From Blastocatellia bacterium (GTDB lineage Bacteria; Acidobacteriota; Blastocatellia; HR10; J050): a stretch of DNA of 49,840 bases. The notes beneath the pieces were generated by a model. That model saw only the letters and a program-made list of their open reading frames with translations, was not told where the DNA came from and did not search any database. The translations under genes were made by a program, and so were the position numbers. The stretch's first letter is position 1. Every line of letters starts with the position of its first letter. Positions 9,124-29,440 of the stretch are shown here, piece by piece. The stretch is from positions 1-49,840 of the forward strand of contig JALSQX010000041.1 of the NCBI GenBank assembly GCA_026985075.1, read 5' to 3'.

Positions 9124-10119
9124 TCAATGTTCAGCCACATAGGGGACGTACTCCTCGTTGAAGCTCACCGTGCGCGCCAGTCGCTCGGCCTGCCCCAGCA
9201 CGAGCCGGCGGAATGTGGTGCGATGCCCGGTGTGGCGGCTGACGAACTTGCGGCTCATCATCCGCTCGTACTCGCGGAGGAAGCGCTTCTTGCCCTCCTC
9301 GACCAGCCAGACGCCGCCATCGTCCAGCCGCCGGAAATCCCCCTCGGAGAGGACCTTGTTATTGAACAGGGTGAGTGCCAGCCGGTCAATCGTCGCGGCG
9401 CGGAATTCTTCGACGAGATCGAGCGCCAGACTGCACCGGCCATACTCCAGCCCGTGAAAGAACCCGATGTAGGGATCGAAGCCCACGGCGGTGACCACGC
9501 CGATGGCCTCGGCGGTGAGCAGCGTATAGCCGAATGAGAGCACGGCGTTGACCGGATCGCGTGGAGGCCGACGGGTCCGCTTCTGAAAGCGCATGGGGCC
9601 GGTGAACATGTGACCGAGAGTGTGAAAATAAACGGCCGCCGCATGTCCTTCCACGCCGCGAAGTCCATCCAGCGTCTCGGCGCGGGGCACCGAGAGCAGG
9701 GCGCGTTCCAGCTCGCGCAACTGGGCCTGGAAATCGACTTCCGGGTGGTTGCGACTGTAGCGAAGGATGACGCGCATGCTGCTGGTGATCTTTCCGGTCA
9801 CGATGTGCCGGGCGACGGTGAGCGGGAAATCGGGGTCCATGGCGCACTCGTACTGCTTCAGCCGAAGCGGCGCGTTTTTCGATTCGATGGCCGTCAAGCG
9901 ACCGCGGAGCTGACCGCGCCCGCTGAGGAAGGTCGTGTCGATGCCCATCTGCAACAGCGCATTGACCGCTCCGGTGGTCAGATGGACGCGGCCGAGAACG
10001 ACCACGCGGTCGATTTTGATGAGGGGAATCTCCCTGGTCTCATCGCCGTTTTTGACGATGAGGCGCTCGTTCTCCCGCCGCACGGTGGCCCCTTGTTCGG
10101 TGAGATATAACGTCGTCAT
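9124..10119 (-). CDS. cas1: CRISPR integrase Cas1
   Basis: The product has 331 residues, a normal Cas1 length. The N-terminal beta domain begins MTTLYLTEQGATVRRENERL, and the helical catalytic domain follows. The metal-binding residues are recognisable: Glu in LRGVEGHAAAVYF, His in YIGFFHGLEYGR, and the acidic pair in ALDLVEEFR. It would insert spacers into the array together with Cas2. There is no fused reverse transcriptase domain, so spacer acquisition directly from RNA is not suggested by this protein. It is the only cas1 in the window and lies between the CARF genes and cas2. Confidence 0.97.
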   Translation of the reverse strand: MTTLYLTEQGATVRRENERLIVKNGDETREIPLIKIDRVVVLGRVHLTTGAVNALLQMGIDTTFLSGRGQLRGRLTAIESKNAPLRLKQYECAMDPDFPLTVARHIVTGKITSSMRVILRYSRNHPEVDFQAQLRELERALLSVPRAETLDGLRGVEGHAAAVYFHTLGHMFTGPMRFQKRTRRPPRDPVNAVLSFGYTLLTAEAIGVVTAVGFDPYIGFFHGLEYGRCSLALDLVEEFRAATIDRLALTLFNNKVLSEGDFRRLDDGGVWLVEEGKKRFLREYERMMSRKFVSRHTGHRTTFRRLVLGQAERLARTVSFNEEYVPYVAEH

Positions 10120-10690: not shown

Positions 10691-12004
10691 TCACGATTCC
10701 GGAGTCGCGCGTTTTGCGTCCGGATTCTGGTCGGCCCCGATGATCTGAATGCGCGTTTTATCCAGAGCCAGGCCATATCGTTTGGAGCCGTATGCGCCGG
10801 TGGTGACGATGTTCAACGATGGAGATAGCCCGGCTTCCTTGATCCGGCGATTGAGCGCGCTGAGGTAGCTGTGGAAATTCTCCATATCCAGGATCGGCTT
10901 ACCCTTCTTCTTCTTCTCGGCCAACCACTCGTCGAAGTTGAGCGCCGACCCGTGAAATGTCCGGCGATAGATCTGGAGGAAGCGCTGTTCATCGATCTCG
11001 CGGAAGGTCTGGAAACAGTCGGTGCATGGGCCACAGACGGGCAACTCGGGCCGGACACAATGATCGGTCTTGATTTCGGCGTAATAGGTGTAGAGGGCGA
11101 GCCGCATGCCGGTGAGCGGGAGGAACGTCTCGCCGAACCGCACCTGGCGGTGCCCAAGGTCGATGATGAGCGATTCGGGTCTGGTTTGCGCCAGATCGAG
11201 TTCGTGCTGGGCCAACTGGATGGTGCGCTCCACACTCGCGTCCAGTCGCGTGAACCGTCGGCCAAGGATATCGCGGAGGCGAATGAAGGGAATCTCGGCC
11301 AATTCGATGCGAGCTTGTTTGGCGTCGGCGGTGGCCGGTTGACCATCCCGGAGGATGCCGATGACCTTCTTGCGCCGGGTGGGGAAGAAGAAGTTGGGAT
11401 TGCTCTCGTATTCTTCGGGCACGAGCACGTGAGAGAGACTATCCTGGCGGCGACCGTAGAGAGTGAGCGCCAGCGCCATATAGGCGGACATCGTCTTACG
11501 ACCACCGGCCAGCGAGCAATGGAGCGCCGTCCGGGGATCGGCGGTGAGCTGTTTGATGAAGCCGAACAGTTGTTGGGCCAGCGCCCGATTATCGGCGACC
11601 GTCCGGATATCATCGAGCGGGGTGGCCGTCAGAGAGGAATCGGATGATCGCCGGCGACTGGACGCGCGTCGCCGTCTGCCGGATCGCCGATCGTGGCTCG
11701 CGGCTCGCTTCAACGTGATGATGTGCTGCTCATCGAAGGCGATGGACGCGGGATTGATGCCGTACTCGCGACAGAAGGCGAAGAACTGTCCGGTGGACGC
11801 ATCCAGGAGTGCCTGGCGAGCGATCTCGGCGCCGCGACGAGTGGTGAGGATGTAGATCTCGGAGATGGGCACGGGCGGTCGCCGCTGGATCATGAGGGCA
11901 TAGAGCGTCTCGGTGATGATCTGCGGCGTCTGTCCGGCCACGGCCACCAGGATGTGACGATACGTGCTCTGGGATGTCTTCCGCCCTCGTTTCATGATAT
12001 TCAC
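10691..12004 (-). CDS. CARF-domain protein, Cas_NE0113 / 'ring nuclease Csm6' family
   Basis: The 437-residue product starts with a CARF-type Rossmann strand, HILVAVAGQTPQIITETLYA (residues 18-37), and has the family signature HCSLAGGRKTMSAYMALALT near 162-181, then RRQDSLSHVLVPEEYE and FFFPTRRKK. These are the hallmarks of the NE0113 family, which binds or degrades cyclic oligoadenylate in type III systems. An Arg/Ser-rich insert (about 104-126) interrupts the CARF domain. The C-terminal half carries a CGPCTDCF cysteine cluster. In this locus it would sense or remove the second messenger made by Cas10. Whether it acts as an off-switch or an effector cannot be read from the sequence; I see no HEPN Rx4-6H motif. 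Start could be Met1 or Met4. Confidence 0.85.
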   Translation of the reverse strand: MNIMKRGRKTSQSTYRHILVAVAGQTPQIITETLYALMIQRRPPVPISEIYILTTRRGAEIARQALLDASTGQFFAFCREYGINPASIAFDEQHIITLKRAASHDRRSGRRRRASSRRRSSDSSLTATPLDDIRTVADNRALAQQLFGFIKQLTADPRTALHCSLAGGRKTMSAYMALALTLYGRRQDSLSHVLVPEEYESNPNFFFPTRRKKVIGILRDGQPATADAKQARIELAEIPFIRLRDILGRRFTRLDASVERTIQLAQHELDLAQTRPESLIIDLGHRQVRFGETFLPLTGMRLALYTYYAEIKTDHCVRPELPVCGPCTDCFQTFREIDEQRFLQIYRRTFHGSALNFDEWLAEKKKKGKPILDMENFHSYLSALNRRIKEAGLSPSLNIVTTGAYGSKRYGLALDKTRIQIIGADQNPDAKRATPES

Positions 12005-12060: not shown

Positions 12061-12295
12061 TGCGTGGCGCAAGATGGCGTCTTGCGCGGCATCCCTTGGC
12101 GAGTCCCTTTTCATCCTCGCCGTGTCGCTCGAACGGGTCATGAGTCACTCCCTGGAAAATCACCGCAAGGGCGCAAAGAACGCCAAGATCCCCGACAGGC
12201 TCTGTTCATCTTCCCGATGTGGCCGGCAAGGCCATGGAGAACTCCTCGAAAATAAGAGCGGCGCAAGTTGCCGGCTTGCGCGATGCGATCGAGCT
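12061..12295. repeat. GCGCAAG...CTTGCGC hairpin repeats
   Basis: Two hairpin elements are present: one at about 12064-12088 (GGCGCAAGATGGCGTCTTGCG) and one at about 12252-12277 (stem GCGCAAG / CTTGCGC). Related copies occur near 26233-26260, 30641-30672 and 30708-30785, the last with a shared tail around GGTCATGGATGACTCC. The second copy lies inside the annotated 3' end of the MNT gene. This is a dispersed family of unknown role. Confidence 0.55.
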
Positions 12296-12515
12296 CCATT
12301 CCGTCTGGCAGGAGTTGCCAGAGCGCCGAGAGAGCGGCAATGTACCGCTCAGGGGCGAGACCTTCCACCGCCAGATCGGTGTCCGATCGACTCTGTCCGG
12401 TCAGCGAGCCGAAGATGTAGACCTCGCGCGCGCCGAATTGCTCTTTCAACATGCGCGCGCACGCTTCAGCGGCTGCTTGCGCCTGGCGGCGTCGCCTGTT
12501 GTCGTGGTGTTCCAT
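12138..12515 (-). CDS. MNT-type minimal nucleotidyltransferase (probably with altered C-terminus)
   Basis: The product contains the nucleotidyltransferase core VYIFGSLTGQSRSDTDLAVE: Gly36-Ser37 followed by the Asp45-x-Asp47 metal pair. This is typical of MNT antitoxins, which AMPylate a HEPN toxin. No HEPN partner gene is adjacent. From about residue 80 the reading frame runs through a dispersed hairpin repeat (12252-12277), and the last 45 or so residues do not look like the family, so the original 3' end was probably replaced or read through. It starts 44 nt after the Csx1-Csx3 gene in the same direction, so it may be co-transcribed. It could be an orphan antitoxin, or could modify one of the HEPN proteins encoded upstream; this is inference. 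Confidence 0.7.
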   Translation of the reverse strand: MEHHDNRRRRQAQAAAEACARMLKEQFGAREVYIFGSLTGQSRSDTDLAVEGLAPERYIAALSALWQLLPDGMELDRIAQAGNLRRSYFRGVLHGLAGHIGKMNRACRGSWRSLRPCGDFPGSDS

Positions 12516-12559: not shown

Positions 12560-12823
12560 TCAAAACGGATCATGATCGAAGATGGTGACCTCGCCGGTGA
12601 CCGGCGACGAGTAGATGAGCCGCCGCGCCTTGCCGTGCAGAGCGTGAGCGACGCGCAGATAGAGCCAGATGGGCGCTTGTCCGGTGAGGATGATGGTGTG
12701 CCCTTCGCCGGCCAGCTCCAGAGCGCGGCGTTCGTATTCGGCGAGATCGCTGAGCTTGGCCGCGTCGGTGTAAGATGTGCCGAGATCAATGGTCACCGGT
12801 TGTTGAGTCTGCTCGTCGGTCAT
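12560..12823 (-). CDS. csx3: Possible internally started free Csx3-like protein
   Basis: Met441 of the fusion lies at 12823, at the start of the Csx3-like domain (MTDEQTQQPVTIDLGTSY). On the minus strand GGAGG sits 8 nt before this ATG, an almost ideal ribosome binding site at the domain boundary. The same DNA could therefore make an 87-residue stand-alone Csx3, a normal length for that family, in addition to the fusion. This is inferred from the site alone. Confidence 0.5.
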   Translation of the reverse strand: MTDEQTQQPVTIDLGTSYTDAAKLSDLAEYERRALELAGEGHTIILTGQAPIWLYLRVAHALHGKARRLIYSSPVTGEVTIFDHDPF

Positions 12824-14143
12824 CGATGAATCCTCCGCGGTCGAATCCTGAGCGCGCGAATCATCATTCAAAGAGCCCGTGTCGCTCAATGGGCGAGGCG
12901 ATTCTCCCGACGACTCCGGCCAGAGGGCATCCAGACCGGCCAGAATCTCGTCCACGGCGTTGACCAGCGCACTGGCCGATGCCGGTTTGAGACGCATGCC
13001 GGCGTGATCGACATCGTTGCGCGCTTCGGAGATCTTGTTCCAAAGGGTACCCAAGGCGCGAGTATCGACTTCGGGAGCGAGTTGAGCGACGGCGTCGTCG
13101 GGGCGTTCATCCCGCCAGGGCCTGCGCTTGTTCCGCGGCCGTTGCTGCCAGCCGAGGTAGTTCAACACCCGCTCGGCTTCCTTGCGCGAGAAATCGGCCA
13201 GCGGATCTTGGTAGCCGAGCATGAGGAGCGTCCAGGTCACCACCCATTCGCGCACCAGAGTGAGCGCTTGAGCATAGAGGCCGCGCTCGGCGTACCAGCG
13301 GATGATGGCCCGCTGGACATCGAGGTTCCTGGCGTCGGGCGCAGTGGCGAAAGGGATGAACTCGGCTTGAAGCAGGGGCGCGACGAGGGCGAACGGTTTG
13401 GCCCATTGTTCGATCTCCTGGCGGGCGGCGTCGGTGAACAGGTTGGTCAACTGCGCGGCCTTCTCCATCACTTCGCGGGGACGGATGAGGAGGAGCGCCT
13501 GAGAGAGCTCCCGGGAGCGCTGGCCGATGTTTTTGATGATCGTGGGCGACGGGCCTCCGGCGCGTTCCCGGTAGGCGCGATCCTGAATCTCTTTGAGCAA
13601 TCGACCGAGGTCGGCGGCGCGCCCGCTCTGCTGGAAGAGATAGACGGCGGCCAGCCAATCGAGCAGGCTCAGGAAGGGCGAGAGGTCGAAGACCGGCGCG
13701 CGATCTTGATCGTCTCTGGCCTCGAAAGCGCCATAGGTGACGGCCTGCAGACGGATGCGCTTGGTGACCTGCAGGTAGGCCATGGCCAGAAAGATGATGA
13801 ACGGGAGCGAGCGATAGCCATGCGTGATATCGAAGACGACGTCTTCGCCTTCATCGACGCTCTCGACGACGCGATCGAAGATGGTCCACAGCTCGTCCGG
13901 CGTCCGCCCCCAGGGAATTTCCACCGGCTGGGGCGCGATTTTCCCGGCCAGCCGGTCGCAGAGCTTCGTCCAGTACATGTCTCTGGATTCCGGCGTGACG
14001 AACACGGTGAGCATGTCGGGCGTGAAGAATTCGTAGAGGGCGACGGGGAACAAATCGGACTCCACGGCGGTGCCGCGATAGACGTATGTCACTGGCCGGT
14101 AATTCCCCGTGCCGATGAACGTGATGGCTTTCATCTGGGTCAC
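12560..14143 (-). CDS. Csx1-type CARF-HEPN ribonuclease fused to a Csx3-like domain
   Basis: There are three parts in 527 residues. Residues 1-170 form a CARF domain of the TM1812/Csx2 type, with start KAITFIGTGNYRPVTYVYRG and signature DITHGYRSLP at 105-114. Residues 170-410 are helical and end in a HEPN RNase motif, R375-NDVD-H380 (Rx4H). After an acidic, low-complexity linker (411-440), residues 441-527 resemble Csx3: LTGQAPIWLYLRVAHALHG, then a short Tyr-Ser-Ser-Pro segment and a final FDHDPF. Csx3 proteins bind and degrade cyclic tetra-adenylate, so this would join an activated nuclease to its own off-switch. The Csx3 motif usually written YDPR is YSSP here, so ring cleavage may be impaired. 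The ORF lies 70 nt downstream of hicA. CARF and HEPN assignment is firm; the Csx3 call rests on motif order and spacing. Confidence 0.85.
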   Translation of the reverse strand: MTQMKAITFIGTGNYRPVTYVYRGTAVESDLFPVALYEFFTPDMLTVFVTPESRDMYWTKLCDRLAGKIAPQPVEIPWGRTPDELWTIFDRVVESVDEGEDVVFDITHGYRSLPFIIFLAMAYLQVTKRIRLQAVTYGAFEARDDQDRAPVFDLSPFLSLLDWLAAVYLFQQSGRAADLGRLLKEIQDRAYRERAGGPSPTIIKNIGQRSRELSQALLLIRPREVMEKAAQLTNLFTDAARQEIEQWAKPFALVAPLLQAEFIPFATAPDARNLDVQRAIIRWYAERGLYAQALTLVREWVVTWTLLMLGYQDPLADFSRKEAERVLNYLGWQQRPRNKRRPWRDERPDDAVAQLAPEVDTRALGTLWNKISEARNDVDHAGMRLKPASASALVNAVDEILAGLDALWPESSGESPRPLSDTGSLNDDSRAQDSTAEDSSMTDEQTQQPVTIDLGTSYTDAAKLSDLAEYERRALELAGEGHTIILTGQAPIWLYLRVAHALHGKARRLIYSSPVTGEVTIFDHDPF

Positions 14144-14213: not shown

Positions 14214-14435
14214 TCACAGGTCAAGAAACCTCTGCACCGTTAATCCAGCTTGCCGGACAATGGCTCGTAACACGCCGCGCTTAATATCTCGACCGGCGTG
14301 GTAGGGCACGACCGTTCGTCTCCCATCTGGATGGCGCAGAATATAAAGGCTCCCGGTGACGTGATCGATTTGGAATCCGGCTTTTTCCAACTTCCGTATG
14401 ACCTCCCCAGGTTTCACTACAGGCAAGCGAGTCAT
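14214..14435 (-). CDS. hicA: HicA-family toxin, catalytic His replaced
   Basis: The 73-residue product MTRLPVVKPGEVIRKLEKAG continues with a dsRBD-like fold typical of HicA mRNA interferases (PF07927), ending IVRQAGLTVQRFLDL. HicA enzymes carry a catalytic His in the segment G-S-H; here it reads TGSLYILRHP, with Leu (codon CTT) where CAT would give His. One base change would explain it, and the toxin is probably inactive. The start overlaps the stop of hicB by 4 nt, the usual antitoxin-first, translationally coupled arrangement for hicBA in this order. The pair sits between the CARF-RelE gene and csx1-csx3. Confidence 0.9.
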   Translation of the reverse strand: MTRLPVVKPGEVIRKLEKAGFQIDHVTGSLYILRHPDGRRTVVPYHAGRDIKRGVLRAIVRQAGLTVQRFLDL

Positions 14436-14765: not shown

Positions 14766-15812
14766 TCACCTCTCAGGCCATGGTTGGAATCCGGTGTAGT
14801 AATCGCGCTTCACGCCGCGATCCAGCGCCTGCTCATAGCTCTTATCGCTATGCCGGGTGAGCTCGCAGACCAGAATCCTCCCTTCGTCGTCCTGGAAGTA
14901 GAAGATGCGCTCATCCCGGCGGCCCTTGGGAAACACCAGACAATCGGAGTTTCGCACTTGATCGGAGCCGGTTCGTCGGAGTTCGGCCAGGCGAAGTTTG
15001 TTGAGTACGCGATCGAAGGATTGGCGTACGCTGGGTTCCAATGACCGATAGGTCGATCGGGCTTTTTCCGAGAGGAAGATGGGAATGGCCTGAGCCTCGG
15101 CTTCTTTCTGCCGAAAAGCCTCATAGAAGGCTTCGCCGGCGGGAGAAAGAAACGTGAAGCCTGCTTCTTCGGCGAGCAGCAGGCGAATTTCGCCGGGAAG
15201 TCCACGGAGTCGGCGATCGACTTCTGGAGTTGTGTGTACTTGGCTGACCCACTCGAAGAATTCTTCATAATCGGCCAGGAGCGAGTAATCCCAACTGATG
15301 GGCGTCGGCGGCATCTCGATGATATCGCGGAAGGCCTCGTGAATGTAATAGACGGGCGCGTCGAACAGAAGACCGACCAGCGTGGCATAAGCGATTTCCG
15401 CTTTGAAACCGCCGGTGGCATTGATGAGGACTGGACGCTGTTGCGCGCGTTCTTTTCGAATCTGCTCGATGAGTGTAGCCACCAGCGAGCGCAGGCCGCG
15501 GAGTTTGAAGCGGCTCTCGGCATAGGTGAGATCGCGTACTTCGCGCAGTTCGACGCTGTAGTGCTGCCGCGTATAATGCCGCCGCAGGGCTTCGGCGCAC
15601 TGCCGCCCCTCGTCGGTCTGTGAGTGGAGAAAGACGATGCGATCTCCGGTCTGGAGGAGTCGTCCGAGCGAATTGGTCTCGGCGCTGGCCTTCTCCGACT
15701 CGGTCTCTTTCAAATACTGATCGAGTTGCCGGTCGGTGACCTCCTCGACGCGGAGGATGCGCCTGGCGTTCGAGAGCAACGATGTTCCCACGGTGACGAT
15801 GATCGTCCGCAT
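14766..15812 (-). CDS. CARF-RelE fusion, Cami1-like CRISPR mRNA interferase
   Basis: The N-terminal part is a CARF domain of the APE2256 type: first strand MRTIIVTVGTSLLSNARRIL, and the ligand-loop signature VLINATGGFKAEIAYATLVG at 128-147. A winged-helix-like linker (about 190-245) follows. The last 100 residues look like a RelE/ParE-fold toxin: SVRQSFDRVLNKLRLAELRR, then ERIFYFQDDEGRILVCELTR and HSDKSYEQALDRG. This is the architecture of Cami1, which cleaves ribosome-bound mRNA when its CARF domain binds cyclic oligoadenylate. It begins 27 nt after cmr6 and is probably co-transcribed with it. The CARF call is firm. The RelE call rests on the pattern of beta strands and basic residues and would need structural comparison. 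Confidence 0.8.
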   Translation of the reverse strand: MRTIIVTVGTSLLSNARRILRVEEVTDRQLDQYLKETESEKASAETNSLGRLLQTGDRIVFLHSQTDEGRQCAEALRRHYTRQHYSVELREVRDLTYAESRFKLRGLRSLVATLIEQIRKERAQQRPVLINATGGFKAEIAYATLVGLLFDAPVYYIHEAFRDIIEMPPTPISWDYSLLADYEEFFEWVSQVHTTPEVDRRLRGLPGEIRLLLAEEAGFTFLSPAGEAFYEAFRQKEAEAQAIPIFLSEKARSTYRSLEPSVRQSFDRVLNKLRLAELRRTGSDQVRNSDCLVFPKGRRDERIFYFQDDEGRILVCELTRHSDKSYEQALDRGVKRDYYTGFQPWPER

Positions 15813-15839: not shown

Positions 15840-17177
15840 TCACTCAGTCGAGTCAAACCGAGCGACGAATTCCTGGAGTTCTTTCACCCATTCTTTATCT
15901 TTCCAATCCTTCAATTTCTTCGCCTGTCGAAGCTTCTCAAGAATTGCCTCAGCCAGTATTCGTCGTGCTTCTTCATCCGAAAGTTTCTTCCATGCTTCAT
16001 AATACTGGCGGATTTGACTGGCCACCTGATTGACCGGCATAAGTTGCACGGCCCGGATTTCAGGCACCTTTTCTACAGGAGACAGGGACTTCGACTGACT
16101 CGCAACTGGCGAAGCGCCCACATCCTGTTTTGCATGTGCGGAGGAACCGGGGATGACTTGCGTGAAGTACCCATATCCCGCTACAGTCTTTGCCCCCACG
16201 CCCATTTCTGTTAATCCCGCTGTCAACCAGTTCTGCGCCTGTTGTGCTAACTTTACGTCCTTGGAAGCAACAGCAAAGAGGAACTCACTACCTGGCGCGA
16301 TGGTGAGGAAGAAAACAGGGATCGGATTCAGGTAGTCGGCAGGAGGTGTGTCACCGCCTTGGTAATATTGACTGTAGTGAGGGTTCATCACGTCCAAGTC
16401 CAGTTTCAGGTTGGCTGAGTTGGCAGGTATAGCGTCAAAAAAGATGACCTTACCCGTACCGGCGATCGTCCCGAACACATCGCGGATGGGTTTGACTTTT
16501 TCCTCAACAGTTGAGAGATTCATCTGACGTACGGGAACTGACGAAGGAACGGCCTCATCACACTGCAAGTCATTGAGAAGTTTCGAGCGACGATTTTCAT
16601 CAGGCTCGTTGATGTATGCTTCTAGCTTCTGGATAGGCGAGGGTTGTCTGCTTCTCTCGCGTGCTGCTACTTCATCTGGCGACAGAGCAAGCACACCTAA
16701 CTGTTCTGCTACTTGCCACAGGGCATACGATCGTGCCAAGCCTTTTAACGCGCTGCCGGGGATGATGGGGAATCCGTAAGTGCGGTGCAAGTGGATGCTG
16801 GTTTCCAACACACTTTCCGCCCCTAACCCGATAATGACGCGGCCCTCGGCGCGCATCAGAAACTGCCTTACTATATAATTGTGCTGCTGGCAGTCGTTGA
16901 GCATGGTCTCCCATCGAGCTTTGTGAGCACTGATGAGGCGGGACAGATCACCTTGATTGAATTCACGAACGCCCCGTCGCTCCCTGGTTGGTTTCGCTAA
17001 TTCCCAACTGTCCCGATCACACTTTAACAGCCGTTCTGTCCGTAAGCCGTAATTGAGGCACCGTTCCCCGCGCACTTCTGCTAGAACACCAGTATCCTGC
17101 GGGAGAGGATAGATCTCTCGCCGCTCAGGAACTCGGCCACCCCGCCTTCGTTGCCGTGAGTGCCTACCTCGTGGCAT
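15840..17177 (-). CDS. cmr6: Type III-B Cmr complex subunit Cmr6, with C-terminal extension
   Basis: This is a RAMP/Cas7-like backbone subunit that caps the Cmr filament. Recognisable segments are YGFPIIPGSALKGLARSYAL (the RAMP insertion loop), RDVFGTIAGTGKVIFFDAIP, LDLDVMNPHYSQYY, and the Gly-rich VGAKTVAGYGYF near the end of the RAMP fold. At 445 residues it is longer than usual: after the glycine loop come about 100 extra residues, a linker of Ser/Lys/Pro followed by a charged, helical tail (ARRILAEAILEKLRQAKKLK). The basic N-terminus (MPRGRHSRQRRRGG) may bind RNA. It starts 3 nt after the cmr5 stop. Confidence 0.95.
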   Translation of the reverse strand: MPRGRHSRQRRRGGRVPERREIYPLPQDTGVLAEVRGERCLNYGLRTERLLKCDRDSWELAKPTRERRGVREFNQGDLSRLISAHKARWETMLNDCQQHNYIVRQFLMRAEGRVIIGLGAESVLETSIHLHRTYGFPIIPGSALKGLARSYALWQVAEQLGVLALSPDEVAARERSRQPSPIQKLEAYINEPDENRRSKLLNDLQCDEAVPSSVPVRQMNLSTVEEKVKPIRDVFGTIAGTGKVIFFDAIPANSANLKLDLDVMNPHYSQYYQGGDTPPADYLNPIPVFFLTIAPGSEFLFAVASKDVKLAQQAQNWLTAGLTEMGVGAKTVAGYGYFTQVIPGSSAHAKQDVGASPVASQSKSLSPVEKVPEIRAVQLMPVNQVASQIRQYYEAWKKLSDEEARRILAEAILEKLRQAKKLKDWKDKEWVKELQEFVARFDSTE

Positions 17178-17180
17178 AGT

Positions 17181-17603
17181 TCATCCCTCCTCCGTTGGTA
17201 GTTCCGCTTCAGCAAAGCGCTTAAGCCACATCAAATAGGCCAGCGCTTCAACTGTCGCGCGACGATAAGCAGCGCTGTCGTTGTTAAGCACCCAACGAAG
17301 CAGGTCCTGATTGCCCGCGCTGGGCGCGAGCTGACTCATCGTCCATACGGATAGATGTTTGAACACCTCACCACTTGCTTGAGCATCAGCCCCACGCTTC
17401 TGTGGTGCTTCTTTAAGCTTCGCTTTAGAAACCAAAAACGCCAGCGTCTGTCCCAGACCGTTGGTCAGCACCAACATTGGGACTTTCCTAGCAAGCGAGC
17501 CATATTTCTTTTTGAACTCATCAGAGCGATTGATGACGCTCTGAATGTCATCCCAGGCTTGTTTTGCTCTCTTCTGGTCTAAAGTCTGTTGAAAGCTTGG
17601 CAT
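17181..17603 (-). CDS. cmr5: Type III-B Cmr small subunit Cmr5
   Basis: This is a small all-helical protein of 140 residues, MPSFQQTLDQKRAKQAWDDI, with the Cmr5 landmarks KVPMLVLTNGLGQTLAFLVS (inner helix) and YRRATVEALAYLMWLKRFAE (C-terminal helix). It forms the minor filament of the Cmr complex next to Cmr4. I prefer the start at 17603 because AAGGA lies just before it; an in-frame Met at 17618 would add five residues. It is separated from cmr4 by about 580 nt of toxin-antitoxin debris, although cmr4 and cmr5 are usually adjacent. Confidence 0.95.
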   Translation of the reverse strand: MPSFQQTLDQKRAKQAWDDIQSVINRSDEFKKKYGSLARKVPMLVLTNGLGQTLAFLVSKAKLKEAPQKRGADAQASGEVFKHLSVWTMSQLAPSAGNQDLLRWVLNNDSAAYRRATVEALAYLMWLKRFAEAELPTEEG

Positions 17604-17609
17604 ATTCCT

Positions 17610-17706
17610 TCCCTCCATCTTGGCGACGAATCACGCAGCCGGAGAGGACTGAGATGTAGCCACCCTCTCGGCCGGTTTCAAGCAAACAATAGATCCAGCC
17701 ATGACA
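17610..17706 (-). pseudogene. HicB-like N-terminal remnant
   Basis: Read on the minus strand from 17706, the DNA encodes CHGWIYCLLETGREGGYISV followed by LSGCVIRR. This parallels the HicB start found at 14674 (VYLEPAEEGGYIVSAPALPG and then a Cys-Val pair). No good start codon precedes it, and it runs into the cmr5 start. I read it as a fossil of a second hicB gene. The similarity is short, so the call is tentative. Confidence 0.4.
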
Positions 17707-17752
17707 TTTGTTTTCCGATCCATTCCCCGTAGAATCTCATCAGAGTCTCTGT

Positions 17753-17902
17753 TCACAGCCAATTGTTTCCTTCTTCTACCAGTTCCTCATGAACGGTCTG
17801 GGAGATAATCAGCTGCTGGAAGGCGAGCTGAAGAGAATGCAAGCCCTCCGCGCACGCCAAGGTGATAAGAGGTGATGTATTGCGAATGGTCTTCCCCCTC
17901 AT
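17753..17902 (-). pseudogene. Truncated PIN-domain (DUF3368) toxin
   Basis: The frame starts at the TAATG overlap with the UPF0175 stop and encodes 49 residues: MRGKTIRNTSPLITLACAEG, then QLIISQTVHEELVEEGNNWL and a TGA. N-T-S-P-L and VHEELVEEG are the opening motifs of DUF3368 PIN toxins, which normally have about 150 residues and partner with UPF0175 antitoxins. The first Asp of the PIN site, usually D/N-T-S/T-P, is Asn here. Everything after the first third is missing, so the toxin is broken. Confidence 0.75.
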
Positions 17903-18165
17903 TACTCACTCTGTCCTCCCAAGACCTTATGATCAGCTTCCACGTCCTCTCGGCGATAATGGAACCAAGGGATCTCATAGCCAGCCAGCAATTGCGGAAG
18001 ATCCCAGAGATTGATGTCCAGGAGTTCCGCCGCTTTTGCCCGGGAGATCAATCCTCGGCGCACCAGGTTGAGCACGAGGGCCTCGCGAGCTTCCGCTTGA
18101 ACCCTCTCCTTGGAGCCAAGCAGATTCATGATCTCGTCTGGGATTTGAACGGAAAGTGTTTTCAT
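17902..18165 (-). CDS. UPF0175-family antitoxin
   Basis: The 87-residue product MKTLSVQIPDEIMNLLGSKE continues with RRGLISRAKAAELLDINLWD, the ribbon-helix-like start plus helix-turn-helix of UPF0175 (PF03683), and ends in the typical IPWFHYRREDVEAD. These proteins are antitoxins of DUF3368 PIN toxins. Its partner follows with a 1-nt TAATG overlap but is truncated, leaving the antitoxin as an orphan. The gene begins 23 nt after cmr4 in the same direction and so splits the cmr operon between cmr4 and cmr5. It may still be made from the cmr transcript and could act as a transcription regulator. Confidence 0.88.
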   Translation of the reverse strand: MKTLSVQIPDEIMNLLGSKERVQAEAREALVLNLVRRGLISRAKAAELLDINLWDLPQLLAGYEIPWFHYRREDVEADHKVLGGQSE

Positions 18166-18188
18166 GACCTATCCTCTCCCTCTTCAGT

Positions 18189-19100
18189 TTAGACACCAAC
18201 GCGCACTTTCACAAAGCCACGCCCGACGGTGCTATCGCCACCCAATTGCAGCCGCTCGCCGTCAACGCAGTCTTTGACGAATTTTATTACTTCCGCCACC
18301 CTATCGCTCGCTTGTTTCCAGTCCTCTGGTAGCTCGTCATCCCTGACTCGTGGCTTGCTGGCAAAGAGCGATGCATAAAGCAGAGTGTCGGAAGGCAAAT
18401 GCTCCTCTGACCACAGTGCACCGCGAGCGACGGTTTTCGTTTCGTCATCCAGGCGAATGCGGCTGATGACTTCGGTTGAAAATTGTGTGAAATCGCGGAA
18501 GGCGTTTTCGGGCAAGATGACCAGACGCTGTGGCAGGGCCTGACGCCAATAGTCATATTCATTGCCCGACGGTAAGGCATTGTCCTTGAGCCAATTTGCG
18601 ATCTCTTGCACGCTGTTATCCTGCCGAGCCACAAACGCAAACTCTTCTAAGACAACTTTGTCGTTACTGACGAGAACACTGCCGGGCGCAACCAGAGCTG
18701 CATCATCTCCTGTTGGGTGTGTCTCCGTCCAGTTCACAGTGACGTCAGCCATCTGTGCATCGCGCTTGAAGCGAGCTAGCACATCCTTGCTCGTCACCCA
18801 TGCAAACACACCCATGAGCGATCGCACAGGAAAGAGCAGAATCCGCGCGTCACCGACCGACAGCGCTCCGGCGTGGTCGCTGGAGGCTTGCGTGTCGGGT
18901 CCGAAGACGATTTTGACCTTCTGAGTATCGTTGCCCGCGGCTTCCCGTAGACAGCCCTTGAGCCCTGACGCTTGCACGATGGGATAGCCCGTTGTGCGCT
19001 CGCGCTGGATGGGCAAGTCCACGATGCCTAAGCTCGTGCCGCTACCCGCATGCAGCGGTGTTTCAACATACAAATACAGCATGGCTGCTTTCTTGAACAT
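18189..19100 (-). CDS. cmr4: Type III-B Cmr backbone subunit and target RNase Cmr4 (Cas7)
   Basis: The product is 303 residues with the Cmr4 N-terminal block LYLYVETPLHAGSGTSLGIV followed by DLPIQRERTTGYPIVQASGL and KGCLRE. The Asp in this loop (residue 28) corresponds to the catalytic Asp that cuts target RNA at 6-nt intervals. The glycine-rich C-terminus reads LQLGGDSTVGRGFV. Several copies make up the backbone of the complex along the crRNA. The gene starts 16 nt after cmr3. Nothing looks degenerate, so RNA cleavage activity is expected. Confidence 0.97.
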   Translation of the reverse strand: MFKKAAMLYLYVETPLHAGSGTSLGIVDLPIQRERTTGYPIVQASGLKGCLREAAGNDTQKVKIVFGPDTQASSDHAGALSVGDARILLFPVRSLMGVFAWVTSKDVLARFKRDAQMADVTVNWTETHPTGDDAALVAPGSVLVSNDKVVLEEFAFVARQDNSVQEIANWLKDNALPSGNEYDYWRQALPQRLVILPENAFRDFTQFSTEVISRIRLDDETKTVARGALWSEEHLPSDTLLYASLFASKPRVRDDELPEDWKQASDRVAEVIKFVKDCVDGERLQLGGDSTVGRGFVKVRVGV

Positions 19101-19116
19101 AATTTATCTCCTCCAT

Positions 19117-20247
19117 TCAGGCATAATCCCAACTGGTTACTATCGCGCCACCAAAACCAATCTGACCAAAATCACCCTCGCTGTCAGGCGTTTCAGTAAA
19201 AGGTTTGTTGCTTGTAGTGACGCTTCCATCACTGTCAAAAAAGAAAACACTCCCAGCAGGAATAAATCGGCGCATGGTCTTCTGGAAGTTGCCGTGATTG
19301 CTACGCTGTCTGTCATCGGCAAATGCGCCACCGATGGACTGGGCGCGTGGTACAGCAGCCGCAACAAGGCGGACATTCGCGCCATTAAAGAACTGTCCCC
19401 AGTCGTCGTCCCGAGGCTTCCATCCGCCGGAAAACCATGCGGGCGTCAGCAACACGATCTTGAACCGTTTTGGCAGCGGATTTTGCGATGATACAGACGG
19501 AAGCGGCGATTGCAGCACCTCGTAAGTCGCTGTCCTCGCATCACCTCCGACTTGCAGGAAGCCTCTCTGTGGAGTGAAGACACCAATGCCATCCACTTCC
19601 AGCACAAAACCGATGCCCTCCCGCAGACGTAGAAACTCCATCGTGTAAAGCATCCCCTCCTCCGTGCTACGCCGCTTGTAGTCTAGCGCAATCCCCAAAC
19701 GCGGCTCACGCACGAACAAGTCACTTTCGGGTGTGACGCAGAAATCAGTCTGCCCGGCCAGATACTTTTTGAATTCGTCCTCCACCAGCCAGCCGTGTAC
19801 TTCTTTAATCGACTCATGCGTGCGCACCCACAGCGGTCGCACAGTGGCAGGAGAGTTGTCATGGCAAGGCGAATTGCGCAAGGGTTTGGCAACAACAAAG
19901 CGATCGTTCACTTTCACGACATCGGCGGGCAGTGGGAAATATCGTGTGATGCTACCATCGTCATTGCGCTTGGCCACAAACGGACCGCGTAGTTGAAGTT
20001 GTCCGTAGCCACTGCCGACACCGCCGATCCTTCGGATCAACCCCTGCGCGGCCGGAGTCGCGGCATAGGCGTAATCATGTGGACTCACGCCACTGTCGAA
20101 AAGAACTTTCGAGCGAATGACACCTTGCATCGTAAACGGTGTGGGTGGGAAGAGGCTTTTAGCACGATGGTCTTCGCCCGCTACGAACGGCTTGCCGTCC
20201 CGGAACAGCAGCACATCATTTGGTTCAATGAACACTTGCCACATCAT
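19117..20247 (-). CDS. cmr3: Type III-B Cmr subunit Cmr3 (Cas5-like)
   Basis: This is a Cas5-group RAMP protein of 376 residues, MMWQVFIEPNDVLLFRDGKP followed by FPPTPFTMQGVIRSKVL, both characteristic of Cmr3. The glycine-rich loop near the C-terminus reads FGQIGFGGAIVTSWDYA. It binds the 5' handle of the crRNA and contacts Cas10. The start overlaps the cas10 stop by 4 nt (20244-20247), which implies translational coupling. Confidence 0.96.
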   Translation of the reverse strand: MMWQVFIEPNDVLLFRDGKPFVAGEDHRAKSLFPPTPFTMQGVIRSKVLFDSGVSPHDYAYAATPAAQGLIRRIGGVGSGYGQLQLRGPFVAKRNDDGSITRYFPLPADVVKVNDRFVVAKPLRNSPCHDNSPATVRPLWVRTHESIKEVHGWLVEDEFKKYLAGQTDFCVTPESDLFVREPRLGIALDYKRRSTEEGMLYTMEFLRLREGIGFVLEVDGIGVFTPQRGFLQVGGDARTATYEVLQSPLPSVSSQNPLPKRFKIVLLTPAWFSGGWKPRDDDWGQFFNGANVRLVAAAVPRAQSIGGAFADDRQRSNHGNFQKTMRRFIPAGSVFFFDSDGSVTTSNKPFTETPDSEGDFGQIGFGGAIVTSWDYA

Positions 20248-23165
20248 TCCTCACCTCCTCGGGCTAGGAAGCGCGCTAGCAGGAGCCACTCGGCCATTTG
20301 TTCAAAACCGCGTTTACCGACTTCACTGACGTGTGTGTTTAATTTCTCCGCGAAGATAGTGAGCCTAGCAGAGAGTTCCTCGGCTTGCATGTCACGCTCA
20401 CCGCGTGAGAGGCCTTCAGCATGCCTCTTGAGCAAGCGCTTAAGCTCCGCTTGTTGCGCTTCTCTTGGCAAGTATGACAACGTGCGAGCTTCTTCAAAGA
20501 CCGCGTGTGCCGCTTTCATAGACAGCCGTCCATTCTTGAAGCGATTGCAGACATCGCTAACTAATGCCACAGTATCCCAATCAGCTTCCCCATAAAACCA
20601 CCGTGCCCCAACACGAGCCTCCTCACCCGACCGCTTAAGTAAATAGACACAAAGGGCATTGCGGTCGTAAAGCTCCTTGGCGTCGCGTTCGGCATAGCGG
20701 ACAGCCTGTAATGCAGCATCCAGCGGTTGTGTATGGTGAGCCATGGCAATGCCGAGAGATGCCGTTGCTGTCGGACCCATCGTGAGCAGGATTTCCCTTG
20801 AAGGCGTTTCGCGGTTGACCAAGTAGCCGCTCAACTGCTGATCCCCGAAGTCCACAGGTAAACCTTCACTGGGGGCAAACTCAGTGAGCGCCTTTTGATG
20901 TTTGACCTGTCCAGAAAACAACGCCCGCAACTCCCGCGCCGCCGGTAACGCCTGGTCAAGTGGAAGCAAAGCCAGCACATCATCGCCACCGGCGTAAACC
21001 ACACGCCCTGCGTACCGCTGCTCCACTACCCAGCGCACGATGTTCAATGCAAAGCTCGCCAGCGCGTTAGAAACTGCTGCGTGCACGGCCGGGGAAATAA
21101 GACGCCGAGCTTTCAAGAGATCTGCCCATCCTGGAAGCTTCTCCAATTCCATTTTCACCTTTGGATGAAGCACCCTCCCAAAACATGCTAATCCGTCATG
21201 TGTACCGCTGAGCCATCGTCCAGCGTGGTCACCGTCCATGTGAAGGATAGCATAGTATTTCGATGGGCGAGGGATGCCAGCTTCGTCAGCAGCTTTGAGC
21301 AATTTCCCAAGCGAGTCGCGCGCGGAGAGCGCGTCGCTTTCACTCATCGTCAATCCATAATCGGCCTTCAAACGTTTAGGTGTGAAGGTCTCCACGAAGA
21401 AGGCTTCACCATCATAATCCAGAAACTTGTCGGCGTATACCTTTGCCTGCGGGGATACGTTCGATAGTCGTTGCCAAGTCCGATGATGTTTTGGAATCGC
21501 ACGTTTGGCGACTGTTCGCGGGAAGCCGAGATGTTGCAACATCTCAATGTGATCTTTGAGCGCGTTGGTCAATCGCTCGCCATGTTGATCATCGCTCAGT
21601 TTGTTCAGCACCGCTACCTTAAAGGAAGCCACAGCGATTTCGCTGGTGGAAGGGAAACCACCCGTGATGCTCAACTTGTCTTTCAACACTTCACGCTGGA
21701 CAAACCGCTTGACGGAACACACGGCACACAGTCGTTCACGTCCGTCGGGTTTGATCTCAGCATGACGCCCTCGTTCTTTCAGATTCGCTGCCACTTGTGA
21801 CCACAGAGCGCGGACACCAGCGCGGCTACCATCCTGTTTGCGCAGCGCAGCGCGCTGTCCGCAAACGGTGCATTTCTCGCCGCGCTCTTCGGTCGGCTCA
21901 AAGCCACGCAGGCTCTTCCGTGCATTAAGGGCGCGGTCAGCAAGGGCGTATAGCAGACTGTAAGTCGTGCCCCAATTCGGGTGATACTGTCCGCCACCTT
22001 CTGCTTTGGGCTTGGCGAAGAGAGCGTAAATCTTGCTGAATGGCCAGTCTGTGGGAGGCTGACCTGTAAAACTCAGATGTTCATATAACGACTTCACAGC
22101 TTCTGCCTGTTTTTTGCCTTCACTCTCGCCTTCGCCTGCCCATGCCCATGGCAATACGACCCAGTAAATTTCCAATTGGTGTGCGACCTGCTCCTGCCAC
22201 ATCTGGCGCGTTATCTCATCGACAGGCATGATGCCATTGGACAACGCCGCAAGTACCGTGTTGGTCAATTGTTTCCATTCATCACATACGGCTTGTTCTG
22301 CTTTTTCCGCCGCCGACTTCGCCTCCGATGCAGGCAGCAGAGCAACGAACTTATTAGGCAGTGTGGCGAGCGCGAGGGCATCACCACCAGGTTTCGTAAT
22401 GGGAACGCCCTGCTCATACAACCACCAATCGCACAGCGGTTGACCGCGCAAGGATGGGAAGATGACGACATCTGGTCCAAATTCTTCTGCAAGAGTCTTC
22501 ATTGCCGCCCAAGTCAGATACGACAGCAGATAACTTCCCATCCATAAATCCTGCGTGCGCCGTGCAGCAGCAATGAACTCTTGCACGGGACCGATGGAAA
22601 AGACCATTAGTGCAGGGTGAGGCAAAGCATCTGCAATCGCTGCCGTGATGGACAAATGCTGATGGAGCGGATGATCGGGCTGACGTGTCTCAGCGGGAAG
22701 CATCCCAAACAGCGCACCCACGCGAGGGAATTCCTGGCCTAATTTATCGGGCAATAGTCGCCACAGTCGGAGAAACCGATCCCTGGTGTCCGCCGCATCC
22801 TTTGTAAGTTGCTCCATGGCTCTTCGCGCTGCATCGTGTGTGTCTGTCACGCTCACGTCAGCCATCATATCCAACTCAAGCGAGCGCCCCGCCAGCGGAT
22901 GAATCAGCACAGCTTGTTGCTTTTGCCAGTAGGCGGCGAGATATTCGCCCTGCGCGTCTTTTTCAGGAAAATCCACACGATCAGCAGCGGAAGCGACCTG
23001 GTCAGCACGTTTCGCTCGGTTCGCTTCATCCGCATTAGCTGCGCGACCTAGTGCTATCTGTATCAATTTGTTTGCACGCCCCTCATGCCCGCTGATAGCA
23101 AATGGTTTGTCAGGCGGATCATGGAGCAGAGCAACAATTTTGCGAGACCAACGGTCAGTTACCAT
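20244..23165 (-). CDS. cas10: Type III-B signature protein Cas10 (Cmr2)
   Basis: The 973-residue product starts with an HD-like region, KIVALLHDPPDKPFAISGHE, with His15-Asp16. A zinc-finger region with two CxxC pairs (CTVCGQRAALRKQ, then CAVCSVKRF) lies near residues 430-490. The polymerase palm carries the intact cyclase motif YAGGDDVLALLPLD, with Gly-Gly-Asp-Asp at 726-729, so synthesis of cyclic oligoadenylate is predicted. A helical C-terminal domain follows. Whether the HD part cuts DNA is uncertain, since only part of the HD signature is evident. Its start overlaps the cmr1 end by 7 nt. It is the source of the messenger for the CARF proteins encoded downstream. Confidence 0.98.
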   Translation of the reverse strand: MVTDRWSRKIVALLHDPPDKPFAISGHEGRANKLIQIALGRAANADEANRAKRADQVASAADRVDFPEKDAQGEYLAAYWQKQQAVLIHPLAGRSLELDMMADVSVTDTHDAARRAMEQLTKDAADTRDRFLRLWRLLPDKLGQEFPRVGALFGMLPAETRQPDHPLHQHLSITAAIADALPHPALMVFSIGPVQEFIAAARRTQDLWMGSYLLSYLTWAAMKTLAEEFGPDVVIFPSLRGQPLCDWWLYEQGVPITKPGGDALALATLPNKFVALLPASEAKSAAEKAEQAVCDEWKQLTNTVLAALSNGIMPVDEITRQMWQEQVAHQLEIYWVVLPWAWAGEGESEGKKQAEAVKSLYEHLSFTGQPPTDWPFSKIYALFAKPKAEGGGQYHPNWGTTYSLLYALADRALNARKSLRGFEPTEERGEKCTVCGQRAALRKQDGSRAGVRALWSQVAANLKERGRHAEIKPDGRERLCAVCSVKRFVQREVLKDKLSITGGFPSTSEIAVASFKVAVLNKLSDDQHGERLTNALKDHIEMLQHLGFPRTVAKRAIPKHHRTWQRLSNVSPQAKVYADKFLDYDGEAFFVETFTPKRLKADYGLTMSESDALSARDSLGKLLKAADEAGIPRPSKYYAILHMDGDHAGRWLSGTHDGLACFGRVLHPKVKMELEKLPGWADLLKARRLISPAVHAAVSNALASFALNIVRWVVEQRYAGRVVYAGGDDVLALLPLDQALPAARELRALFSGQVKHQKALTEFAPSEGLPVDFGDQQLSGYLVNRETPSREILLTMGPTATASLGIAMAHHTQPLDAALQAVRYAERDAKELYDRNALCVYLLKRSGEEARVGARWFYGEADWDTVALVSDVCNRFKNGRLSMKAAHAVFEEARTLSYLPREAQQAELKRLLKRHAEGLSRGERDMQAEELSARLTIFAEKLNTHVSEVGKRGFEQMAEWLLLARFLARGGEE

Positions 23166-24301
23166 CCTGTCACCTCCAATCGTCTTGCAACTTTACTGTC
23201 CAAATCGTTCAGGAAGTCGTGAATGATAGTCAGATCGGGCGGATTAACCGTGGCGTGTTGCAGTTGGAGTTGCTCGCCGTGAGACAGCAACTGGGCTTGG
23301 AAGAGGGTTAGCACAACGGTACACCGGCCATTGGTTAACTTTGCTACGCGCATCATGAGCGGTGAAGCACGGCGGTCGTGGCGTTCGCCCTCCAGCGTGC
23401 CCCGTTGTCCGCCCAACGAGCGGTAGTAAAACACGATAGGTAAGCCGAAAGCAGCGCGCTGTACAGGCTGGTTTAATCCTCGTCCCTGCACGGCCGCTTT
23501 TACATTGGCATAGTCTGATGGGTAGCGGCAGCGAAACTGCTGCATCACCTGACCAATTGTGTCTAACGCCTCTTCCCAGGAGTTGAATGATCTGTTTACC
23601 ACCCACACCTTGCATACGTTCGGATGTAGCACATCGAAAGCAGAAGGAGTATTGATGCTCCCAGGCGAAGTGGTAGACACCAATTGCCGCAAGCATCGCA
23701 GCCCGTCAGCGAGTTCCTTCTGCAATTCATCAGGCGTTGTCGCACGGACGATGAGAGATGGCAGATTAGTGGGCTCTCCTGGCGCTTGTGTTGCCTGCAA
23801 ACTCCCCGCGCCACGCCGTGAACGCGCGCCTAAGCCGCCAAGATGGGTTAGTAGCCATAAGGCCGCATACGCCCGCTGCAAGGCCATGTTGTCCAATTCG
23901 CTTACACCTGCTCGCACATTAAGCAATAGTTTGAATGAACTCTCTGCCACAATGGCGCATCGTTCGGCTTCACGCCTAGTTCCTCGTGCTGCGAAGTAAA
24001 GATAGCAGACACCCGCTCTATTTGCGGCAAGCTCAGAAAAGCTTTGTGTTCGGAGAGAACCATGCCAGACTCGCACCACCACAGGCGATGCGCCGGTGTC
24101 GGTGCTGCCAAAGACAGCGGATTCGGCTTGTCGCAAAGCATCCAAATCGTTATCTCCGATGATCCCACCTAACAGTGCCCGCAACCAGAAACGCAATGCG
24201 CCACGCACCGACGCTGCCCGTAGTTCAGGTCGTCCACGTGGGTCAGCACCTCCCAGAAACAACGGTGTGACCGTCTCCAACGTGAAGCTCACTTTTTTCA
24301 T
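23159..24301 (-). CDS. cmr1: Type III-B Cmr subunit Cmr1
   Basis: This is a RAMP protein of the Cas7 group. It begins MKKVSFTLETVTPLFLGGAD, and LRAASVRGALRFWLRALLGG is the Cmr1 RNA-binding segment; NQPVQRAAFGLPIVFYY is typical of its second half. Cmr1 binds the 3' end of the crRNA and sits at the end of the filament. I place the start at 24301 because GGAGG lies 6 nt before it; an upstream in-frame ATG at 24313 has no ribosome binding site. It is followed by cas10 with an overlap and preceded by 200 nt separating it from cas6. Confidence 0.94.
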   Translation of the reverse strand: MKKVSFTLETVTPLFLGGADPRGRPELRAASVRGALRFWLRALLGGIIGDNDLDALRQAESAVFGSTDTGASPVVVRVWHGSLRTQSFSELAANRAGVCYLYFAARGTRREAERCAIVAESSFKLLLNVRAGVSELDNMALQRAYAALWLLTHLGGLGARSRRGAGSLQATQAPGEPTNLPSLIVRATTPDELQKELADGLRCLRQLVSTTSPGSINTPSAFDVLHPNVCKVWVVNRSFNSWEEALDTIGQVMQQFRCRYPSDYANVKAAVQGRGLNQPVQRAAFGLPIVFYYRSLGGQRGTLEGERHDRRASPLMMRVAKLTNGRCTVVLTLFQAQLLSHGEQLQLQHATVNPPDLTIIHDFLNDLDSKVARRLEVTGW

Positions 24302-24506
24302 GCCGACCTCCATATCATGATGGGTTTTAGCACACCCACCGGTTCACTTCACTCACAACAACCTTGAAACAACCTTGTTTTTCTTCGCCGATCTCAGGTT
24401 CATCGGCACTCAGGCCACCGAGCAGTGCGCCCATCCTCTTCGCCGAGGCGAAGAGAACCTCCCGACGCTACTCCCTCCTCCCCCGCTCTCTCCGCACCCA
24501 AACGCA

Positions 24507-25493
24507 TCACCCGACGGGCGCATCCCCGGACGCCTCTTCCACCGGCTCCACCTCATACTTCCCCAATCCAAACGTCGTTCCCGCCCCCACATGGAGCAGC
24601 TCCCCAAGGATGAACAGCGGCAGAAGCTCACTCAGAACCTCAGCCGGTCCACCATACACGACCTCACCCACAAAGCCCCCCAATCGCATGGCCGTCCGCT
24701 GCCGATGCGAATACCGCTCCCAATCCAGCCAGCGCAACTCGCTCCTCACTACCCGAACGGCCCCGGCGCGCTCGATCAGCCGACGATGATCAATCTGCCA
24801 CGGCCCTCCCCCATGCACGAGCATCAACTGCCATATCCGCCGGAGCAGGCTGCGCGCCAACCGAGAGAAATCCGCTTCCCCTTGCAAATCGCCGCCCACC
24901 CGAATGCGCACCGGCGTCATAAATCTTAGTTTCACACCCGCCGAGCCCGCGCCGGAGAAATCGAAACCGGCCAGCCGACGCCGGACGAACGCCTCAATGT
25001 CCAAGGCGAACGGCCCGGCGGCCAACCGTTGCTCGCGACCATCGTAGATCAACCGCTCATCTCCTTGAGCATCAATTACATACGCCGATTGGAGCACGAA
25101 CCGCCCGCGCTCCCGCCCCAGGCCATGATGCCCGGCCCGGTCCAGGGCATAAATCACATACGGCAAGTAATCCACCGCCCGACCAATCAGCGTGAGCCCG
25201 AAGCAGAGTCGCTCGCCGGGCCGATAATACAGCTTCTCATCCGAGGGCGGCTCCAGGATGAACGGCCGCGGCGCGTACTTCTGCCCGCGAAACGCGGCCA
25301 CGCCCTCGGGGGGCAACGTCTCGAAAACGAGCGTGTAGGCGCATTGCGGACGGACCAGACAGGCCTCGCAATCCAGATCAGCGCGGATGCACACCAACCG
25401 CTTGAGCCGATGACCGAACGCTCCCCGAAGGGTCGATCCCTTGTAATGCGGCAAGTGGGCTTCCGTCTCGGCGCACAGCTCGAAACGGAACAC
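24507..25493 (-). CDS. cas6: CRISPR pre-crRNA processing endoribonuclease Cas6
   Basis: The product carries the N-terminal block LPHYKGSTLRGAFGHRLKRL, a cysteine cluster (CEACLVRPQCAYTLVFE), and the C-terminal Cas6 signature GGFVGEVVYGGPAEVLSELL followed by HVGAGTTFGLGKYEV (PF10040 type). It cleaves the repeat to leave the 8-nt ATTGCGAC handle. The only start in frame is GTG at 25493. However, the open frame continues upstream with LDQAKRLPLSV, which also looks like Cas6, while an ATG sits in another frame at about 25577. Either the true start is a rare codon or there is a frameshift near a TTTT run at about 25556-25559. It is the first gene of the locus. Confidence 0.93.
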   Translation of the reverse strand: MFRFELCAETEAHLPHYKGSTLRGAFGHRLKRLVCIRADLDCEACLVRPQCAYTLVFETLPPEGVAAFRGQKYAPRPFILEPPSDEKLYYRPGERLCFGLTLIGRAVDYLPYVIYALDRAGHHGLGRERGRFVLQSAYVIDAQGDERLIYDGREQRLAAGPFALDIEAFVRRRLAGFDFSGAGSAGVKLRFMTPVRIRVGGDLQGEADFSRLARSLLRRIWQLMLVHGGGPWQIDHRRLIERAGAVRVVRSELRWLDWERYSHRQRTAMRLGGFVGEVVYGGPAEVLSELLPLFILGELLHVGAGTTFGLGKYEVEPVEEASGDAPVG

Positions 25494-29340: not shown

Positions 29341-29440
29341 TCGTTCCTTCCCTCGCTCATCATCCCCATGATTCTCATGCCCAGCTCAGGGTTGACGCAG
29401 CGACCACACCCCCTTATGGTTATTCGTGAGCTGATCGACT

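Follow-up and report, generated by a model that had tools for sequence, protein, structure and literature searches.

In Csx1 ribonucleases, binding of the messenger cA4 to the CARF dimer activates the HEPN RNase. One such enzyme, Csx1-Crn2, is joined to a ring nuclease domain and is self-limiting (PMC7293037). In the ring nuclease Crn3/Csx3 of Archaeoglobus (AfCsx3), cA4 is sandwiched between the D69 face and the H60 face of neighbouring dimers; the H60A and D69A variants are dead singly and complement each other when mixed, R71A is nearly dead and H80A is very weak (PMC7371418). Csx15 proteins sequester cA4, and one tested member also cleaves it (PMC13148439). A CARF-HEPN-Csx3 architecture is already catalogued in PADLOC-DB (2023), and the passages of text covered by our literature searches contained no published description or test of such a fusion or of the active site of its tail.

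The window analysed here, a stretch of 49,840 nucleotides, is contig C41 of a 5.2-Mb Blastocatellia genome (completeness 98.7%). An earlier note on this DNA had described a Csx1 nuclease fused to a Csx3-like domain and knew of no Csx1-Csx3 fusion, a novelty that the dedicated CARF_HEPN_CSX3 model of PADLOC-DB removes. The csx1-csx3' gene itself (12560..14143, reverse strand, as are all genes and domains given below for the window) is a single uninterrupted frame of 527 aa from a GTG at 14143, and the ATG at codon 4 (14134; 524 aa) is the likelier start because homologues begin at MKALTF. The encoded protein consists of a CARF domain (residues 4-160, 13664..14134; TIGR02221, DxTHG domain, alignment A4 and model secondary structure), a middle helical region in the predicted model (161-265, 13349..13663), a HEPN ribonuclease domain (about 266-407, 12923..13348; PADLOC CARF_HEPN and model), a low-complexity linker predicted to be disordered (408-448, 12800..12922; pLDDT below 50 at 411-414 and 416-445) and a C-terminal domain, hereafter Csx3' (449-527, 12563..12799; Pfam, predicted fold and residue alignment). 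The motifs named by the note are all present: DITHGYRSLP at 105-114, with D105/T107/H108 as DxTH; the HEPN motif R375-x4-H380 (13004..13021), correctly numbered in the note, in which R375, N376 and H380 are invariant across the 15 rows of alignment A4; and, in the tail, GQAPIWLY at 488-495, AHALH at 499-503 and the terminal DH at 523-524.

The first 407 residues have the family score of a Csx1 (TIGR02221 gives 107.6 bits on the CARF part, above its cut-off of 76.25), the DxTH CARF motif and a HEPN R-x4-6-H, and the gene is part of a type III locus (Cmr1-6) whose Cas10 carries the cyclase motif GGDD. CARF, HEPN and Csx3-like domains share one frame, and the PADLOC-DB model PDLC01844 'CARF2--CARF_HEPN_CSX3' spans residues 4-525 with E 3.3e-125, better than plain CARF_HEPN at E 6.6e-108. 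The protein is not a Csx1-Crn2, as its tail has the Csx3 fold and not that of Crn2 (DUF1874). In the full-length model (pLDDT 84.8; linker 416-445 below 50) the nearest solved chain is Csx1-Crn2, 8y6z, whose CARF-HTH-HEPN arrangement is also the closest solved layout to the middle helical region. A sequencing error hiding a stop between the parts is unlikely because five other complete fused frames occur, plus a fragment in genome G132; chance similarity or a frameshift behind the fusion was likewise considered and is rejected in view of those five frames, the fold and selection.

The assignment of the tail stood up to two of the checks that the note had proposed, a profile search and a structure prediction. 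With the Pfam Cas_csx3 model (cut-off 21 bits) the whole protein scores 23.5 bits and the tail by itself 27.7 bits. Against the NCBIfam Crn3 equivalog the score is 24.6 bits, well short of the cut-off of 55.4 bits, and two stand-alone cellular copies of Csx3' reach 28.7 and 24.3 bits. An AlphaFold2 model of the tail built from 20 aligned rows has a mean pLDDT of 90.2 and the order strand-helix-strand-helix-strand-strand. In a Foldseek search of the PDB its top 11 chains are all AfCsx3 (probability 1.00, TM 0.59-0.66), followed well below by CARF chains of Cat1 and Crn1, and VIA-align superposes it on 6yud_F with Z 8.2 and an rmsd of 2.2 A over 75 residues, the next non-Csx3 entry scoring 6.1. 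The predicted tail therefore has the Crn3/Csx3 fold, and Csx3' is a sister subfamily of this ring nuclease.

The fusion gene belongs to a III-B locus that adjoins an array of 104 repeats. Upstream of it lie a Cami1-like CARF-RelE effector (14766..15812; PADLOC CARF7--CARF_RelE, E 5e-120), cmr6, cmr5, cmr4 and cmr3 (15840..20247, profile matches), the Cas10/Cmr2 that is the putative messenger source (20244..23165; TIGR02577, 276 bits), with both GGDD cyclase and HD motifs, and cmr1 and cas6 (23159..25493, profile matches). Downstream are a CARF5/NE0113 protein (10691..12004; TIGR02584, 204.6 bits) and cas1 (9124..10119, profile match). A HicA toxin gene and a HicB-like antitoxin gene (14214-14674, reverse strand) separate the fusion from the CARF-RelE gene, and a 125-aa frame at 12138-12515 (reverse strand) looks by eye like a small nucleotidyltransferase, with no Pfam or NCBIfam match. 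Elsewhere in the window, short diverged repeat families with GC-rich hairpins, often spaced by about 70, occupy 28824-32369 and 36156-36485, and the contig end (49741-49838) is almost pure poly-C, possibly a sequencing or assembly artefact. The Pfam model found no second Csx3 above chance in the window genome. Contig C4 of the same genome carries a decayed second Csx1-Csx3' gene (L002 1397-1602; G000:C4:73413-73618), in which a CARF start and a 31-residue Csx3' end (77% identical) stand in different frames and the middle is missing.

Comparison of the active-site residues showed that Csx3' keeps one face of the Crn3 site. In alignment A5, all 18 cellular Csx3' rows (seven fused and 11 stand-alone) have the equivalents of H57, H60 and H80, which are H500, H503 and H524 in the fusion protein. 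At the position of R71 all 18 rows have V, A or I, and at that of R46 none has Arg and one has Lys. The position of D69 is occupied by Ser in the MAFFT alignment, or corresponds to the variable residue 512 (Asp once, in L032) according to hhalign. The absence of D69 and R71 rules out the tail as a canonical Crn3 domain, and because this half of the Crn3 site is missing, the chemistry or rate of Csx3' must differ from that of AfCsx3. Residue 512 is Arg in 10 of the 11 stand-alone rows versus none of the seven fused copies, which may for that reason be weaker or inactive. The A5 counts leave out four of the 12 matches from the phylum of a Binatia MAG: L099 and L100, with a broken N-terminus and all three histidines kept; L101, which is divergent, keeps the three histidines and may have the D and R; and L102, a fragment with only H80. 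In 13 Csx3-type comparison rows, D69 is kept in 12. Six AAA-fused Csx3 domains (L037, L040, L103-L106) keep D69 in five cases, H60 in one and H80 in none. By these counts, Csx3' and AAA-fused Csx3 have mostly retained opposite halves of the site, a pattern for which our literature searches on Csx3 found no published report. A canonical Csx3 was also seen at L107 2902-3186, in a Pyramidobacter plasmid record, beside integrase, LexA and DUF2800/DUF2815 genes, probably in a prophage-like element.

The whole protein was matched in 28 of 396 genomes of the phylum. The fusion is encoded by one complete frame each in the window genome, G331, G383 and G086 and by two such frames in G315, and G132 contributes a contig-end fragment; in G224, G387 and G344, Csx1 and Csx3' are separate genes that neighbour or overlap each other. 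Csx3' was found in six of 162 genomes of the class and in 11 of 198 genomes of the Binatia MAG's phylum, there always as a short separate frame. In the phylum of the Anaerolineae MAG G512 it was found in none of 350 genomes, a search that had no known positive and so shows nothing alone; searches of plasmids and GenBank phages were empty, and a scan of genome contigs found only L034 and L035, neither with Csx3'. A single origin of the fusion is supported by only 14% of bootstrap trees.

Overall, seven genes encode Csx3' joined to Csx1, and it is a gene of its own after Csx1 at four loci and after other messenger effectors at six. Of the 11 stand-alone cellular copies in A5, all but L093 have a messenger effector directly upstream: Csx1 in L015, L017, L019 and L096, CARF-PDDEXK in L092, L095 and L098, TM-CARF in L094 and L097, and TM-SAVED in L091 (calls by PADLOC at eight of the 10 loci, and by phmmer for L015 and L017). 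Reverse-transcriptase-like frames, recognised by eye, directly follow Csx3' at L094 (1898-2794) and L101 (10113-11990), the latter apparently fused to a Cas6-like part. Among the nine best Csx1 matches in the 396 genomes, six have a fused Csx3', two (G235 and G063) are followed directly by a Csx15 gene and one (G267) lacks both. This replacement of Csx3' by Csx15 in the same slot is the best evidence for what the tail may do. The L034 Csx1 (58% identical) is the closest relative lacking the domain; no ring nuclease could be recognised downstream of it, so the tail is dispensable there.

The tail is under purifying selection: pN is 0.04-0.23 and pS 0.32-0.79 for the Csx3' domain in six of six fused pairs, and identity to L005 and L006 is 77-80% in the tail versus 54-55% in the helical/HEPN part. 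A possible internal start codon, M441 (12821..12823), stands at the Csx3' boundary behind GGAGGA at 12831-12836, and such a start might supply free Csx3' in addition. Across 13 window genes, a GGAGGA-type site precedes three of the 109 ATGs that are internal and in frame, and in G331, G383 and G132 the linker FGGE(Q/H)xM encodes GGAGG-ATG, which resembles the ribosome site preceding the separate gene in L015; the L008, L032 and L010 fusions have a GTG at the equivalent place, without GGAGG. As synonymous-codon draws often yield the same site (56% for the window; 37%, 30% and 18% for others), the internal start is only suggestive.

An alignment-based scan of IMG/VR, membership of which is itself a prediction, identified Csx3' on eight probable phage contigs (L074 and L108-L114), with nine copies in total, two of them on L074. 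H57, H60, H80 and D523 are intact in six copies (L108-L113). All four are gone from L114 and from the second copy on L074; the first copy there lacks H60 and D523. In the flanks of L108-L114, 17 queries detected no cas gene besides Csx3', and none was found in the annotated gene list of L074. PHROGs matches among the neighbours include a terminase small subunit, a RecE-like exonuclease, an integrase, a phage RNA polymerase beta subunit, a DNA methyltransferase/ParB and Sak4; the tested neighbour on L114 had no PHROGs match, and a search for Csx3' in BFVD gave no hit that reached E 0.001. Surveying 28,114 phage genomes, a 2025 study reports AcrIII-1, Csx20 and Csx16 in phages, and the accessible portion of its text names no Crn3 in phages (PMC12409355). 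Canonical Csx3 was also observed on 11 IMG/VR contigs (L115-L125, not vetted), possibly as anti-CRISPR ring nucleases; the seven of the 11 that were scored all have R46, H57, H60, D69, R71 and H80. At columns where no more than one cellular row dissents, the L074 copies are changed in 11 of 28 His-side cells versus none of 12 on the other side (Fisher p 0.017), a result of little weight, as the sides were assigned from topology, the test was post hoc and the two copies are related to each other. E480 was considered as a new catalytic residue, as it is invariant in 18/18 cellular rows and missing from the L074 copies, but was rejected since it is replaced in L109 and L111-L113, where the histidines are kept.

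By analogy with known systems, we consider it somewhat probable that the fusion is a Csx1 that limits itself by removing cA4 through its tail. The Cas10 of the same III-B locus, judging by its GGDD motif, would make cA4 on target recognition; cA4 on the CARF dimer of the fusion would turn on the HEPN RNase; the C-terminal Csx3' would remove cA4 from the same chain; and both this RNase and the neighbouring CARF-RelE effector would shut down once cA4 synthesis ends. Csx3' would most likely act through its His-centred, probably metal-binding face, composed of H500, H503, D523 and H524. cA4 is the putative ligand, which the tail may cleave rather than bind. A messenger-removing role is favoured by the pairing with effector genes, the displacement by Csx15 and the viral copies, and the reading also draws on the predicted fold, the invariant histidines, the purifying selection on the tail and the precedent of Csx1-Crn2. 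Points against it are the loss of D69 and R71, the score below the Crn3 cut-off, the L034 Csx1 without a partner and the pattern at residue 512. The note's off-switch, proposed by analogy with Csx3, is supported only in part: the domain has invariant equivalents of H57/H60/H80, and D69 and R71 are absent from this and all related copies.

The main rival is a pure sponge: Csx3' would be a non-cleaving second binding site for cA4 that buffers the messenger and sets the threshold of Csx1, its histidines serving binding or dimer stacking. This would account for the loss of D69, R71 and R46 in all Csx3' copies and for the persistence of three viral copies without the full set of histidines. It also has a precedent in PfCsx15, a published non-enzymatic cA4 sponge whose His is needed for inhibition (PMC13148439), and Csx15 stands in for Csx3' beside two Csx1 genes. 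The same source argues that sponges are inefficient at the signal levels of type III systems (PMC13148439), and the constancy of H57/H60/H80 in 18/18 cellular and 6/9 viral copies seems to exceed what a pure sponge needs, so we consider this rival unlikely, though to be taken seriously.

Less probable still is a split site, in which Csx3' contributes the His/metal face alone and its substrate is cA4 bound to another surface, such as a partner CARF or SAVED domain or a D69-type Csx3. In AfCsx3 the faces of two dimers make one site and H60A and D69A complement in trans (PMC7371418); Csx3' retains one face where AAA-fused Csx3 mostly has D69 without H60/H80, and G132 encodes both kinds. However, G132 is the only one of the nine Csx3' genomes in the phylum sample with a D69-type Csx3, the effector partners include non-CARF SAVED, and on the viral contigs no partner accompanies Csx3' in cis. 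As a general rule, a D69-type partner in trans was rejected, the window genome having none.

It is very improbable that the tail acts on RNA or on Csx1 oligomerisation instead of the messenger, although Csx3 was reportedly first described as a Mn-dependent 3' exoribonuclease. The RNA activity of AfCsx3 needs H60, as cited in PMC7371418, and the ring nuclease domain of Csx1-Crn2 also trims RNA 3' ends (PMC7293037), but such a role leaves the pairing with membrane effectors, the displacement by Csx15 and the viral presence unexplained. Accidental read-through, with the csx1 stop lost and the tail a relic, would fit the GGAGG-ATG of the G331, G383 and G132 linkers and can practically be dismissed, since the tail is under purifying selection, is more conserved than the helical/HEPN part and is fused in five other genomes (G331, G383, G132, G315 and G086).

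Returning to cA4 removal by the tail, we tentatively suggest a wider scheme, which we hold as a speculative possibility: the two-faced site of Crn3 may have been split in evolution, with a Csx3' family, joined to cA4 effectors or paired with them, retaining the His face alone and removing cA4 by altered chemistry, perhaps when presented by a partner, and phages may have captured the family as an anti-CRISPR, the His-less copies being sponges or dominant negatives. If the tail removes cA4, the fusion would be a second, independently built self-limiting Csx1, and the joining of this RNase to an off-switch would have occurred with two unrelated folds. The residue pattern of Csx3' makes it testable how much of Crn3's two-dimer site is required, and the viral copies would add a family to phage counter-defence. 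The one-faced active site and the viral spread are what is new here beyond the catalogued architecture.

Among known systems, the PADLOC CARF_HEPN_CSX3 entry, whose name presumably derives from the 2020 CARF classification paper, has the same domain order as the fusion over its whole length, as a bare model. The Csx1-Crn2 of Marinitoga (8y6z, 8y7g) is likewise built from a CARF-HTH-HEPN Csx1 and a C-terminal cA4-removing domain, and a RelE gene predicted to be activated by cA4 is found in the Marinitoga genome as well (PMC7293037), whereas its tail has the Crn2/AcrIII-1 fold in place of the Csx3 fold. Archaeoglobus Crn3/Csx3 (3wzi, 6vjg, 6yud) has its fold and H57/H60/H80 in common with Csx3', which at 20% identity lacks D69, R71 and R46, has a different N-terminal part and ends no more than three residues past the H80 equivalent, unlike the Archaeoglobus protein. 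In Csx3-AAA proteins (L037, L103; Synechocystis Slr7080) the Csx3 domain is also fused to a partner, and by keeping D69 and mostly losing H60/H80 it forms the mirror image of Csx3'. The sponge or ring nuclease Csx15 occurs in the position of Csx3' behind Csx1 genes of this clade but belongs to a different family (NF040560). Finally, AcrIII-1/Crn2, although of an unrelated fold and differing in that the phage role of Csx3' is inferred only, resembles Csx3' as one family found in cells, fused to Csx1 and in phages.
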